Origin: Sulfurimonas sp.
Lineage (GTDB): Bacteria > Campylobacterota > Campylobacteria > Campylobacterales > Sulfurimonadaceae
DNA: 64,000 nt
Assembly: GCF_018698455.1 (NCBI RefSeq)
Contig: NZ_JABIOQ010000039.1
Span: 1-64,000, forward strand
Direction: 5' to 3'
Positions 363-11,713 of the stretch are shown in pieces. The translations under genes were made by a program, and so were the position numbers. Position 1 is the first letter of the stretch. The number at the start of each line of letters is the position of its first letter. The notes below the pieces were generated by a model. It was not told the DNA's origin. It ran no database searches and worked only from the letters and a program-made list of their open reading frames with translations.

Positions 363-3300
363 ATGAAATTATTTATAAAACACTTACTTTTACTTATTTT
401 ACTAAGTACACAGTCCTTCGGGTTTTCCAATAATCCACCTGTTGCAAATGCAGGTCCTGATATTACAACAACTACCAATACTTACATAGTTATTTCTGGT
501 AGTGCAACAGATGGAGACGGAGATAGTCTTACATACAAATGGGAGAATTCAAGTGGTCAAGTATTAGCCACTTCAAAATCCTTTGTTTATCCCACTAACA
601 ATACAGGAACTTATACACTAACATTTATTGCTACCGATCCAGAAGGTGATTATGACACTGATAAAATGTCAATTACCATAAATTTACCCTATGGAGGAAC
701 AGCCGACGGTGTATGTTATGACTCGCCCACTACTTCAGATAGAAAAACTACTACTCCTATAAATTCTATAGATAATACACTAGAAAACGTAATTGTCTAT
801 TTTGACACTTCCAGTCTAATTTCAATTTTTGGAGGAGGTCCCATAGATGACTGTTCAGTCGATAATGGTGCGAAAAGTGTTAATTGTGAAGAAGATAGCA
901 GTGGAAACAGTATCGGTCCCGTTAGTATGTTTAACAATGAGGGCTGGACATTTAGTTTAGGAGATGTTTCAGAAAATCAAGACCGTTCCATTAGTACATA
1001 TGACGATCGTTTTGGTTTTGGTTTTTTTGACTTCATTAACAGTTTTTTTAGTATAACTGGTGCGATTCAAGCCACTTACGAAAAAAATGGCTACCTCTAT
1101 AAAGGTGAAATAAAAGCATGTGCACCACCGCCTAGCAAAGAAGTTGAAGTGACTACTAATTTACGAGATTTTACAATTAGAAATCCTTTAGAGACACGTA
1201 ACATTAAAGGGAATATACAAGTAATAGGAAATACCGTCTTGTGTGTCAAAAAGAATGGTAGTTGCTATAACTATAAAGGGAATTCCAGTAATGCTAATCT
1301 TAACTTACAGTATATTGATACAGATGGAGATCAATATACATATAACTCCTCACAAGCAAAGTTAGAACTTCCAGCAGAGTCAACAATTGTATGGGCTGGT
1401 TTTTACTCTCAAGGTTATTTAAAAGGCTTAAACAAAAGTCAAAGTATTAGTAAGGCAAATGAACCTACACGACTAAGTCATCCAGTATTTGGAACACTTT
1501 CACTAACACCGGACAATCTTGACCTGTACCCTAATGACAACAATGGATATACTTATAGTACCTTTACTGATGTTCCAGCTCTTGTTGGACTAACGGAGAC
1601 AGACTTAAATGGCTGGATAACAGGGGCAAACATAAAGTCATATATTGGAACTGACCGCAGTGGTTTAGGTAACTTTGGAGCATGGACATTTGTTGTTATT
1701 TATGAAAATGAAAGTGAAACACTTAAAAATATTTCTATTTTTGATGGTTACCGCCGTGTTGCTAAAAATAGAGGTTTCAGTAGTGTAGAAATTCCTATCA
1801 CTGACTTCTTAACACCTAGTAATGGAGATGTAAAATCTACGATTTCAGTTTTTGCTGGAGAGGGAGATAAAAATATTGGAGGAGATAAATTTTATGTTGA
1901 TAACATTTCACTTAATGGAAATAATGCATTTAACTCAGCAACGAGTGGTTTCGATGCTAATCCTGACTACATAAACAACCAAGGTATAGATATACAAAAC
2001 TATAATATTGGTACTGATGGCGATCAAACGCATCCACAAATCATTCAAAATGATCAAACTTCAGCAGTTATTAAACTTACTTCTTCGCAAGATACATATT
2101 TTCCAAGTATGGTAGGCTTTACAACAGAGCTTTATATTCCTCGTGTTTGTTACTATATAGACACTATTGTTGGTGCTAGAGGAAATAAAATATTTGATGA
2201 TGGGGAATTTATAGAAGACATAGAATCTAACACAGAGTACACTTTTAACTTCTGGATTTCAAATATGAAGAAAGAAGAAACTGACACTGAATTAGAAGCA
2301 GCAAAATTTGTACAGATATACTTAAATATGCAAGACTTTGACTACACTTCAAACTCTTCAAGCATTTACAATCTTGGTACAAGTGGTTATCAAGATATGT
2401 CAGATAGTTACAACTTTGACAACAACTATTCAAAAGCAGCCAATGACTTAGGTGAATATATATCTAATAACTCTACCTGGAGGGTTGGTTACGGGGCAAA
2501 CACACAACAAGGTGGAATACTAAATGTTGCATCTGGGTTTAATGATACTCCAAATATAGTAAAAGTGAAAATAAATGGTCAAATAACAACTAGCATTGAT
2601 GCCCAAACACTTGACTTGCTTGACTATTTAGAAGTAAGTGCTTCATTTAAAACTGACACAATCACAATTGATCCCAATAATGCTCTGCGTATCGAACAAT
2701 GTCAAGACTTAAACACTAGTGCTACTCTAGGACAAAATGGCTTATACAATGCAGTTCAAACAAACTTTACATACAGTAAAGACCCTATAAATGATGGTAC
2801 AGTTGTTGATCCTAAGAACTACTTAAAAACTCAAGTTGTAAACAAACCTTTTACTCTCGCCATATTATCTCTTGATCGTAGCGATGAAGAAACATTAGTA
2901 TATTCCACTAAAGATGTAAATGTATCGATTATAGCTACTCCTTCATGGACAGGAGATACCAATACAGATGCACAATTATGCCATAATGCAGTGCCATTAG
3001 ACACAGAACAAGTTGTTCTTTTAAATGGTCTTCAACAGATAAATGCAACATTCAACTCTCAAGTTGCGACAAAAAATGCAAGTATAAAGATAAAGTATAG
3101 TGAATCATCTTCAGCCTGTTCACGTGATGTTTTTGCAATACGTCCTGATAGATTTATCCTCACTGCCCCAGCAGGACAAGATATAGAGTTATTGACATCT
3201 GCGAGAAATTATAATCTATCACTCGATGCTGTACAATTCAACACTACTACACCAGTAACTACTTATAATGTTCCCAATGTCAACAACACAGTATTTGATA

Positions 3301-4523
3301 TAAATCAATCTCTGCGCAAACCAGATGGATCTATTGATAATAGTATGAATGGAACAGTCTCATTTTTAGCAACCCAATTTAACATCATTAATGGTAGTGC
3401 TCTAAATGCAGTTGGTTTGAATTTTGATGATGTTGGAAATGTCATCATTCAACTTGTAGATAAGACATGGGCTCAAATAGATATAGCTAATAATGACACA
3501 ACTGCAGATTGTAGTCCTACGGGAGCTTATGTTTGTGGTGACATAAACGCTACTTTTATTCCAGCTAACTTTTTGTTAAACGCTGTTACTTTGCATAACA
3601 ATAATAACGGTAACTTTACCTATATCTCAAACGATTTAAGTATGTCAGCACATATTCAACTCACAGCAACAGCAGTAAATGATAATGGCAATCCCACAAG
3701 AAACTTTACACAAAACGATTGGGAAAATCCTGTTGATATCACAATGAATCTCGCTGCCGTTGCAGGAATGACTTCGCATCAAGATGATGTAAATCAGACA
3801 CGTAACCTAAATTTTCAAAATGGAGTATTAATGATTCCTTGGAATGAAGCACAAGGTTTTAAACAAATGATGTTCAATTTCCAAAGAGCTAATGATGCCG
3901 TTAGGAATCCTCTTATGGTACGTGGTACAGATGTAAATGTAACAGCTTCATCAGTTTACACATCTTCTACAGGTACACCACCAATAACAGTGACTGGTTC
4001 TAGTCTTGCAGACCAAAATACAACTTTTGTTTACGGAAGAACAAATGCTCCAAGACAGATGTTTCAGGCAAACATAGGTACTGTACCAATCTCCTATGAA
4101 AGTTATTGTTTTGGGGCAGGTTGCGATAAGACAATGCTTCCAGGTGGGGTAAACTCTACAACTACTAATGATCCAAGATGGTTTGTAAATAACGGACATG
4201 ATCCAATGATATCTGGAAACACTGGAGTAGTCAATCAAAGAAGTGGTGCTGGATTAGTCACAAATCCAGCAGGAGTAACAGATGCACTTGGATTGACGAC
4301 AGTCCCTTTAATTTACAACGGTGCAAGTTTTCCATATAAAACCACTATGCAAAACAATGCTTCTACTTGGCTAATATATAATCAATACAATGCGGGTGCG
4401 GGTGTAAATGAGTTTGAAGTAGAATTTACCAATGCTAATACAACTTGGGCTGGACAACATGAGACAAATTCAACGACCGCCACAACTGCAGCACAAAGAA
4501 CAAATAGGAGAGCAATGTGGTAA
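363..4523 (+). CDS. Large secreted modular adhesin, MshQ-like (putative pilus-tip protein)
   Basis: The product has 1386 residues. An N-terminal signal peptide (about residues 1-20) is followed by a PKD/cadherin-like domain with NPPVANAGPD and DGDGDSLTYKW at about 25-110. Around residues 437-463 lies a GAWTFVVIYE...ISIFDGY segment, typical of repeat domains in large Gram-positive surface proteins. From about 926 to the end, RPDRF and ATFIPANF motifs with paired cysteines recall the DUF6701 C-terminus of MshQ, a component of MSHA pilus operons. The stop overlaps the start of the next gene, the first of three prepilin-like genes, so it probably sits on or near a pilus tip. The domain calls are by eye. 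A generic extracellular adhesin or PilY1-like role is the alternative. Confidence 0.55.
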   Translation: MKLFIKHLLLLILLSTQSFGFSNNPPVANAGPDITTTTNTYIVISGSATDGDGDSLTYKWENSSGQVLATSKSFVYPTNNTGTYTLTFIATDPEGDYDTDKMSITINLPYGGTADGVCYDSPTTSDRKTTTPINSIDNTLENVIVYFDTSSLISIFGGGPIDDCSVDNGAKSVNCEEDSSGNSIGPVSMFNNEGWTFSLGDVSENQDRSISTYDDRFGFGFFDFINSFFSITGAIQATYEKNGYLYKGEIKACAPPPSKEVEVTTNLRDFTIRNPLETRNIKGNIQVIGNTVLCVKKNGSCYNYKGNSSNANLNLQYIDTDGDQYTYNSSQAKLELPAESTIVWAGFYSQGYLKGLNKSQSISKANEPTRLSHPVFGTLSLTPDNLDLYPNDNNGYTYSTFTDVPALVGLTETDLNGWITGANIKSYIGTDRSGLGNFGAWTFVVIYENESETLKNISIFDGYRRVAKNRGFSSVEIPITDFLTPSNGDVKSTISVFAGEGDKNIGGDKFYVDNISLNGNNAFNSATSGFDANPDYINNQGIDIQNYNIGTDGDQTHPQIIQNDQTSAVIKLTSSQDTYFPSMVGFTTELYIPRVCYYIDTIVGARGNKIFDDGEFIEDIESNTEYTFNFWISNMKKEETDTELEAAKFVQIYLNMQDFDYTSNSSSIYNLGTSGYQDMSDSYNFDNNYSKAANDLGEYISNNSTWRVGYGANTQQGGILNVASGFNDTPNIVKVKINGQITTSIDAQTLDLLDYLEVSASFKTDTITIDPNNALRIEQCQDLNTSATLGQNGLYNAVQTNFTYSKDPINDGTVVDPKNYLKTQVVNKPFTLAILSLDRSDEETLVYSTKDVNVSIIATPSWTGDTNTDAQLCHNAVPLDTEQVVLLNGLQQINATFNSQVATKNASIKIKYSESSSACSRDVFAIRPDRFILTAPAGQDIELLTSARNYNLSLDAVQFNTTTPVTTYNVPNVNNTVFDINQSLRKPDGSIDNSMNGTVSFLATQFNIINGSALNAVGLNFDDVGNVIIQLVDKTWAQIDIANNDTTADCSPTGAYVCGDINATFIPANFLLNAVTLHNNNNGNFTYISNDLSMSAHIQLTATAVNDNGNPTRNFTQNDWENPVDITMNLAAVAGMTSHQDDVNQTRNLNFQNGVLMIPWNEAQGFKQMMFNFQRANDAVRNPLMVRGTDVNVTASSVYTSSTGTPPITVTGSSLADQNTTFVYGRTNAPRQMFQANIGTVPISYESYCFGAGCDKTMLPGGVNSTTTNDPRWFVNNGHDPMISGNTGVVNQRSGAGLVTNPAGVTDALGLTTVPLIYNGASFPYKTTMQNNASTWLIYNQYNAGAGVNEFEVEFTNANTTWAGQHETNSTTATTAAQRTNRRAMW

Positions 4524-9970: not shown

Positions 9971-11341
9971 ATGATAAAAATTATTGTCTTAACAATTATA
10001 TCACTTATTTTTTTAGGTTGCGGAAGTAGCGATGGTTCTGCCACCACAATTACCCTGCCTCAGCAAGAGCCTGAAATCCTACCTCCGCAAGAGCCTGAAA
10101 TCCTACCTCCGCAAGAGCCTGAAATCCTACCTCCGCAAGAGCCTGTCCCTTTTCCGGTATCAGAATCCTCTATCCCTATGCTTTGCATTTTAGTAAACTA
10201 TGATGACCAAAAAATTATATCTTCTGATTCTGTCTGGAGTGATAAAATTTTTGGAAAAAACAATCACCAGCTCAACCACTATTATCAGGAAAATAGTAAT
10301 TTTCAATTTGAATTTGCAAAAGTTTCTGAGAACAGAGGAATACTCAACGATGGTATTGCCTCAGTAAGCCTCAATAAAAACCATCCAAATATTGATATTG
10401 ATAGTTCCAATTTTTCAAGTTCTTTTTATCCTGATTTAGGAGACGCATTGAGAGAGCTAGATAGCGATGTTGATTTTTCAAACTTTGACAATAATGCCGA
10501 TGGGTATATATCATCCAATGAATTAGTAATCACTTTCATTATTGCTGGTTATGAAGACGCTTATGAAGGCTTCCATGTCGCTAATGGTATATGGGCGCAC
10601 CAATCCTGTGTATCATCTACTGTTGATACAGTTACACTAGATTCAGTAACCTTGATGAGTTGCTCGGCCCAAGGTAAATTTTCTCTTTTTGGTGAGAGAC
10701 ATAATCTAAATAATTCTCATGATGCAACAATAGGTATAATCGCTCATGAGTTAGGACACTCTGCCTTTCACCTTCCAGACTTATACAATACCTCAAACTC
10801 AAACCGTGGAGGAATTGGAGCATTAGGGTTGATGGGGCTTGGAACATGGGGATATGAAAACAACTTAGACTATCCTGGAAACACACCTTCACATTTTTGC
10901 GCATGGAGCAAACAGTACAACAATTGGCTTACCCCATCTCTACAAACTGGCTATAGTAATTTAGATGAAAGTTCTTCTCTTGAGTATAACGTCGTAAAAA
11001 TACCTATAGATTCAACCAGCTACTACCTTGTAGAAAATAGAAATAACAGTGGCTACGATAAAGGCCTCAATGCACTTAGTGGTATCTTTAATGGGGGAGT
11101 TGCTCTGTGGAAGATAGATGAATCAAGACTCACCCAAACATACATAGACAACAACAATGTAAACGCGGACACACAGAACAAAGGTGTTGACTTGGTTGAG
11201 GCAATTATGGGTAGCATTGATTCAGCTGGAAGCTATGGAGATGAGAGTGCTCTTTATTATGATTCAAATGTTAACTCATTTGAGAATGTAATTTCAAACG
11301 TATCCTCACGGGGAACTCTAATGTCACTCAATATAAACTAA
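9971..11341 (+). CDS. Secreted lipoprotein metalloprotease, M6 (immune inhibitor A)-like
   Basis: The 456-residue protein has a lipoprotein signal ending LIFLGC, with Cys17 as the lipidation site. A low-complexity EPEILPPQ stalk (about residues 33-56) follows. The catalytic domain has HELGH at 259-263 followed by HLPD, giving the zinc motif HExxHxxxxxxD of M6 peptidases, and an LMGLGTW Met-turn near 288. An EF-hand-like loop (D173, N175, D177, G178, E184) matches the conserved calcium-type loop of M6 enzymes. The usual N-terminal propeptide is absent here. The gene 9 bases downstream encodes a secreted protein resembling that propeptide. It probably degrades extracellular protein from the outer surface. 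The substrate is unknown. Confidence 0.8.
   Translation: MIKIIVLTIISLIFLGCGSSDGSATTITLPQQEPEILPPQEPEILPPQEPEILPPQEPVPFPVSESSIPMLCILVNYDDQKIISSDSVWSDKIFGKNNHQLNHYYQENSNFQFEFAKVSENRGILNDGIASVSLNKNHPNIDIDSSNFSSSFYPDLGDALRELDSDVDFSNFDNNADGYISSNELVITFIIAGYEDAYEGFHVANGIWAHQSCVSSTVDTVTLDSVTLMSCSAQGKFSLFGERHNLNNSHDATIGIIAHELGHSAFHLPDLYNTSNSNRGGIGALGLMGLGTWGYENNLDYPGNTPSHFCAWSKQYNNWLTPSLQTGYSNLDESSSLEYNVVKIPIDSTSYYLVENRNNSGYDKGLNALSGIFNGGVALWKIDESRLTQTYIDNNNVNADTQNKGVDLVEAIMGSIDSAGSYGDESALYYDSNVNSFENVISNVSSRGTLMSLNIN
10064..10144 (+). repeat. 24-bp in-frame tandem repeat, 3.4 copies
   Basis: Three identical 24-base units starting CAAGAGCCTG (10064, 10088, 10112) plus a 9-base partial unit encode repeats of EPEILPPQ in the lipoprotein stalk. 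Identical in-frame units are prone to slippage, so stalk length may vary between strains. Confidence 0.9.
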
Positions 11342-11350
11342 GGATTTTTT

Positions 11351-11713
11351 ATGAAACACTTTACACTCTTACTTTTATCTTTCTCTTTTTTATTTTCCGC
11401 TCCAGCATTTAACAAACTGAGAGAATTCAAGAATGCAGATGGTTCAACTTTTATGGCACAAGCAAAAGGTAACCATCACCTACATTGGATTCAAACGCAA
11501 GATGCAGAGATACTAAGATACAATCCTAATAGTAGAAATTTTGAATATGCGGTTATAGAAGATGGTTCTATGAGAGCTTCTGGAAGTAAATATCAAAAAA
11601 ATAACTCCAATAGAGCCAGAGCAATAGCTCATATAAATAAATTGAATATTAATGATGTTCACAAATTATGGTCAAACAGACAAAATAAACATAAAACTCA
11701 TAAGAAAGAATAG
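11351..11713 (+). CDS. Secreted protein resembling the M6 protease propeptide, encoded separately
   Basis: The 120-residue product has a signal peptide ending about LFSAPA. It then has a compact segment with ADGSTFMAQAKGNHHLHWIQ and AEILRYNPNSRNFEYAVIED, followed by a basic His/Lys-rich tail. The pattern dG-(T)-f-x-a-x-x-x-G-(D/N)-x-x-x-H-x-x-x-T-x-D-x-x-(I/V)-x-r is the one I associate with the N-terminal prodomain of many M6 metalloproteases. Here it stands alone, 9 bases after the protease gene, with GGATTTTTT as the ribosome binding region. It may act in trans as a folding helper or inhibitor. This is an inference from motif resemblance and position; no such pair is known to me. Confidence 0.55.
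   Translation: MKHFTLLLLSFSFLFSAPAFNKLREFKNADGSTFMAQAKGNHHLHWIQTQDAEILRYNPNSRNFEYAVIEDGSMRASGSKYQKNNSNRARAIAHINKLNINDVHKLWSNRQNKHKTHKKE

Follow-up and report, generated by a model that had tools for sequence, protein, structure and literature searches.

Introduction

Prodomains are usually seen as parts of a protease chain that act in cis and are cut off once. In M6 proteases an N-terminal prodomain in the same chain is usual, and it is not part of the TIGR03296 family model. Fused M6/TIGR03296 proteases of this kind occur in Bacillota, Elusimicrobiota and other groups as one polypeptide, with the prodomain first and the catalytic domain behind it. Small proteins that act on a protease from a separate gene have been described in other protease classes. 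In Pseudomonas savastanoi, the small product encoded downstream of the protease RhpP, RhpC, binds the enzyme in trans and restrains it, and has been described as a "functional mimic of prepropeptides" (PMC6490944). Protealysin, an intracellular enzyme of the M4 family, shares an operon with its protein inhibitor emfourin (PMC9505478). In Plasmodium, SUB1-ProM is a stand-alone propeptide-like protein that is encoded beside protease genes and inhibits in trans (PMC6993865).

Here we describe a protease gene and a small partner gene in a 64,000-nucleotide stretch of a Sulfurimonas sp. genome (the window). Both domains are homologous to those of the fused M6 proteases, but the window pair consists of two genes with the prodomain second, its protease is a lipoprotein, and the partner has an extra helical tail. 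The pair resembles RhpP-RhpC in that a small gene lies directly downstream of a metalloprotease gene; RhpP, however, is an M4 protease, and RhpC is cytoplasmic and is not described as a propeptide homologue (PMC6490944). It differs from protealysin-emfourin in that the enzyme is an M6 protease and not an intracellular M4 protease, and the partner had no match to any Pfam inhibitor family. As with SUB1-ProM, a homologue of the family's own propeptide is separately encoded; in contrast, SUB1 belongs to the subtilisin class and retains its own propeptide, which the stand-alone copy supplements instead of replacing (PMC6993865). None of these three systems is an M6 system, and none has a partner that, as a homologue, takes the place of a prodomain found in cis in relatives. 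In the open-access literature we found no report of a separately encoded prodomain for M6 proteases, although an earlier description elsewhere is possible, and no account of what the prodomain does in fused proteins of the TIGR03296 type. The preliminary description of this DNA had suggested that a split propeptide acting in trans would be a new arrangement. For M6 proteases that literature held no earlier report; similar cases are known from other classes of protease.

Results

An M6 protease without a prodomain

The features of the locus are listed in Table 1. The protease matched the NCBIfam profile TIGR03296 at 128.6 bits (cut-off 110.8) over residues 73-366 and Pfam Peptidase_M6 at 34.3 bits (cut-off 22), and it was assigned to M6 only, as M4 peptidase was not matched in Pfam or NCBIfam. 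A VEG domain scored 22.5 bits, below the Pfam cut-off of 27.6, and was not assigned. The catalytic site is intact (HELGH...D). The protein starts with MIKIIVLTIISLIFLGC, and the lipoprotein signal and the Pro/Glu-rich linker fill its first 72 residues and lead directly into the catalytic domain at residue 73. No N-terminal prodomain was found in the chain.

Table 1 Features of the protease-partner locus in the window.
Feature	Positions	Strand	Basis
M6-family (TIGR03296) metalloprotease, predicted lipoprotein, without prodomain	9971..11341	+	456 aa; family profiles; homologues in 60/200 family genomes
Lipoprotein signal peptide, LGC at end, Cys17	9971..10021	+	Read from sequence; lipoprotein-like starts common among homologues
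Pro/Glu-rich linker, in the prodomain's place	10022..10186	+	Sequence; low pLDDT over much of the linker
M6 catalytic domain, TIGR03296 model 2-277	10187..11068	+	Profile match
Zinc-binding motif HELGHSAFHLPD, HEXXH plus Asp at +11	10745..10780	+	H, E, H and D columns invariant in homologue alignments
Stop codon TAA and 9-bp gap, TAAGGATTTTTT; stop within the partner's Shine-Dalgarno	11339..11350	+	Sequence; layout shared by many pairs
Separately encoded M6 prodomain (partner), 120 aa, predicted Sec-exported	11351..11713	+	Sequence, homologues, profile match
Partner signal peptide, to FSA|PAF	11351..11401	+	Cleavage point judged by eye
Six-strand prodomain core, homologous to the fused M6 N-terminal domain	11417..11590	+	Profile match; predicted strands parallel fused protein L182
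C-terminal two-helix extension, conserved L..LW..KR; disordered linker there in the fused model	11609..11707	+	Alignment, predicted structures

Two further features of the protease were recorded. The linker includes a 24-bp tandem repeat at window positions 10054-10145 (3.8 copies, 97% matches), which encodes repeated LPPQEPEI and whose length may differ from strain to strain. In nearly all split-type proteases the Asp that follows HEXXH sits at +11, and in most fused and Listeria forms at +10; since +11 also occurs in some fused forms, this spacing was not taken as evidence.

A small exported partner encoded immediately downstream

The second open reading frame follows on the same strand. Its product belongs to no family in Pfam or NCBIfam, and no consistent family was found among 18 of its homologues. 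Across the pairs the stop codon of the protease commonly lies inside the ribosome site of the partner (TAAGGA or TAGGAG), and from this overlap translation of the partner is likely coupled to the protease gene. Homologues of the small protein were found in 58 of 200 genomes of the family and the protease in 60 of the 200, and the two sets of genomes were nearly the same. Of 72 distinct proteases, 58 were followed directly by the partner in the same orientation, mostly with a gap of 9, 8 or -4 bp. The partner is thus a real, conserved gene, as its homologues and its adjacency to the protease both indicate.

Adjacency alone would also be expected if a fused gene had been broken by a frameshift or a stop codon. 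That a split artefact of this type accounts for the pair has a negligible probability: the gene order is reversed relative to the fused proteins, which refutes it, both genes come with a signal peptide and a ribosome site of their own, and this layout is found repeatedly in Campylobacterota and in SAR324.

Homology of the partner to fused M6 prodomains

A wider set of M6 loci was gathered with an alignment query, a single-sequence protease query having matched nothing. A profile built from 59 stand-alone partners of Campylobacterota matched the N-termini of fused M6 proteases in this set at up to 67 bits, and the matched proteins came from Bacillota, Elusimicrobiota, Nitrospinota, Chloroflexota, Aquificota, Thermodesulfobacteriota and Gammaproteobacteria. 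Likeness between signal peptides was ruled out as the source of these matches. When the profile was rebuilt without signal peptides, it scored 24-49 bits on twelve fused N-termini. Among 3902 decoys, made by reversing or shuffling ORFs, the highest score was 12.7 bits, and ORFs other than M6 and partner genes stayed below 7 bits. The divergent Oceanospirillaceae-like proteins L202, L204 and L205 reached only 7-10 bits and were left out of the homology claim.

Whole-genome searches of 15 genomes, 13 of which had a match, returned M6 prodomains or partner genes only, and an M6 domain lay in the same frame in every fused match that was checked (Gammaproteobacteria, Bacilli and Elusimicrobiota). 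Conserved positions common to the partner and the fused prodomains were Q-x-DG-x-x-F, GD(E), W, G, Y-x-A and L. Because the signal-free profile matched fused N-termini far above the decoys, and because the same six strands were predicted (see below), these results support the identification of the partner as an M6 prodomain that is separately encoded and in reversed gene order. The preliminary description had placed a prodomain-like secreted protein 9 bases downstream of an M6 catalytic domain without a prodomain, and had proposed that the small protein is a split M6 prodomain; the exact coordinates and the family profiles agree with the first statement, and the margin over decoys and unrelated ORFs supports the second.

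Predicted fold of the partner

AlphaFold2 was applied to a natural fused protein, L182 (538 residues, mean pLDDT 87). In its N-terminal region strands were predicted at residues 34-37, 43-50, 55-59, 63-67, 73-79 and 82-89, followed by a short helix (102-106), a disordered stretch (113-132) and then the catalytic domain. The window pair was folded as one chain, read through the TAA for folding only, with paired rows from in-frame relatives. Strands of the partner were predicted at residues 23-27, 33-41, 44-49, 54-58, 63-70 and 73-80, with a pLDDT of about 94-97 over the core, and helices followed at 87-93 and 100-119. By the order of the six predicted strands, the modelled fold of the partner is that of the fused prodomain. 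The helical tail of the partner had no clear counterpart in the L182 model, which has a linker there instead.

The catalytic part of a fused relative aligned to the zymogen structures of the InhA-type M6 peptidase (PDB 4yu5/4yu6) with Z about 30, from the catalytic domain on. Searches of solved-structure (PDB) sequences with the partner profile returned no meaningful match, the InhA prodomain included, and the PDB structure search was dominated by the catalytic domain. A viral fold search gave no match.

Lineage distribution of split and fused forms

All 58 genomes of the Campylobacterota family that had a match carried stand-alone frames only, as did the SAR324 group (all 14), where an M6 frame adjoins in every locus but one, which lies at a contig end. 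Bacilli (all 6) and Elusimicrobiota (all 22) carried fused frames only, and Gammaproteobacteria had eight fused forms and one split. Split pairs were also present in a Bathymodiolus symbiont and in a second uncultured gammaproteobacterium. The split or fused state therefore follows lineage, and the split form is the rule in two bacterial lineages and is not peculiar to this genome. Both split and fused genomes exist, as the preliminary description had anticipated; fused relatives were present in other phyla, but none was found among the 200 sampled genomes of the organism's own family.

On a tree of the catalytic domain that included all rows, split versus fused required two changes. Without ten rows, mostly long-branched, it required one change, a single branch with a support of 98.9 parting split from fused; the tree carries no inferred root and does not order split-first and fused-first. 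In the two-change tree, long branches had placed a divergent split subfamily among the fused rows. Two fused M6 proteases per genome were also seen (L256 in G1103:C28, L252 in G1090:C21, and L248/L250 in G907:C21), and in G1103 and G907 the two lie within a few kilobases of each other.

Co-evolution and genomic neighbourhood

Mirror-tree comparison of partner and protease distances gave a correlation of r 0.79, compared to a permuted maximum of 0.25. The housekeeping gene glyQ served as a control for species history at 31 loci. In this set r was 0.82 between protease and partner, 0.39 between protease and glyQ, and 0.44 between partner and glyQ, and the partial r between protease and partner given glyQ was 0.78. 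Since this correlation remained after the control, shared species history was rejected as the sole cause. One branch of the partner tree, with a support of 99, parts the two diverged protease subfamilies, and genome G150 has one pair from each subfamily. These results indicated that partner and protease co-evolve.

The commonest neighbours of the pair were housekeeping genes, such as glyQ at 25 of 60 loci, which fits a long-resident chromosomal locus. A protease next to a small inhibitor-like gene also resembles the protealysin-emfourin operon, which has been read as a possible effector-immunity system (PMC9505478), and the window protease might by analogy target other cells or surfaces while the partner protects the producer. 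We consider this unlikely, as the protease is a predicted lipoprotein, the neighbours are of the housekeeping type, and the partner is homologous to the protease's own prodomain.

Of the 72 proteases, 14 had no adjacent partner; two of these lie at a contig end and 12, from Campylobacterota, are not so explained, and all but one of the genomes of these 12 have a partner elsewhere. In G034 and G048, orthologous proteases and orthologous partners were found at separate loci, and in G048 each was the only one found, which suggests that the two proteins can work unlinked. The coordinates of the unlinked pairs in these two Campylobacterota genomes are L072 2722-4098, L079 2880-4232, L074 about 3264-3750 and L080 3153-3647; no ATG, GTG or TTG ORF was listed across the signal peptide of the L074 partner.

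The few partners unlinked from any protease, together with the conserved C-terminal helical extension that the fused model lacks, could mean that the partner has been freed for another job, such as periplasmic or matrix binding, and stays with the protease only through operon inheritance. This too is unlikely, since genomes with unlinked partners also have unlinked proteases, and partner and protease diverge in step to a degree that the glyQ control does not account for.

Other arrangements were observed. Tandem protease-protease-partner loci, with two M6 genes and then one partner gene, occur at L068 (2757-7032) and also at L128. In L084, L087, L094 and L069, long lone M6 lipoproteins, repeat-like N-terminal extensions replace the prodomain, and the genomes of these proteins also have a normal pair. 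In L241 and L244 (G783, SAR324) the partner frame is apparently broken and the protease frame perhaps too, possibly in a decaying copy or through assembly errors. M6 proteases of Listeria (L188, L191-L193, L196, L198, L199 and L201) have no N-terminal prodomain and no adjacent partner; some M6 domains can therefore do without a prodomain.

Discussion

The reading that we consider probable is that the pair forms a two-gene zymogen, in which the prodomain is a separate exported protein that likely binds the protease in trans and confers latency, with probable help in folding. We propose the following route. The protease would be exported as a lipid-anchored protein on a flexible tether, its prodomain already absent from the chain, and the coupled downstream gene would supply the prodomain as a protein exported on its own. 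The most likely meeting place of partner and protease is the periplasm or the outer membrane; there the partner may bind the catalytic domain in trans and hold the protease latent; it probably also aids the folding of that domain. Because there is no covalent link, activation would proceed by dissociation or degradation of the partner instead of cleavage of a linker. The partner could act in trans as an inhibitor, as a folding helper, or as both.

The balance between these two functions may differ from this. If the partner were mainly a foldase, the protease would need it to reach an active fold, the partner would then leave or be destroyed, and inhibition would be incidental. Prodomains of many secreted proteases aid the folding of the catalytic domain, as stated for subtilases (PMC6993865), and the tight gene coupling and the co-evolution fit a one-to-one folding partner. 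The lone Campylobacterota proteases and the prodomain-less Listeria M6 proteases nevertheless keep intact catalytic motifs, and folding alone seems possible, at least in these relatives. A role mainly as a foldase is therefore possible but is not the reading we favour.

For the history of the pair, we lean somewhat towards the two-gene zymogen being ancient and fixed by lineage. Roughly once, the prodomain would have been detached and relocated downstream of the protease gene, or else the split state would have given rise to the fusion, and the partner would be a dedicated trans regulator, unlinked in a few genomes, for which covalent attachment is dispensable.

The split state is fixed across whole lineages with fused relatives alongside, and the requirements of a prodomain in cis and in trans can thus be compared. 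A protein family that is absent from Pfam and NCBIfam gains a likely role, and the partner may be a natural, specific protein regulator of M6 proteases.
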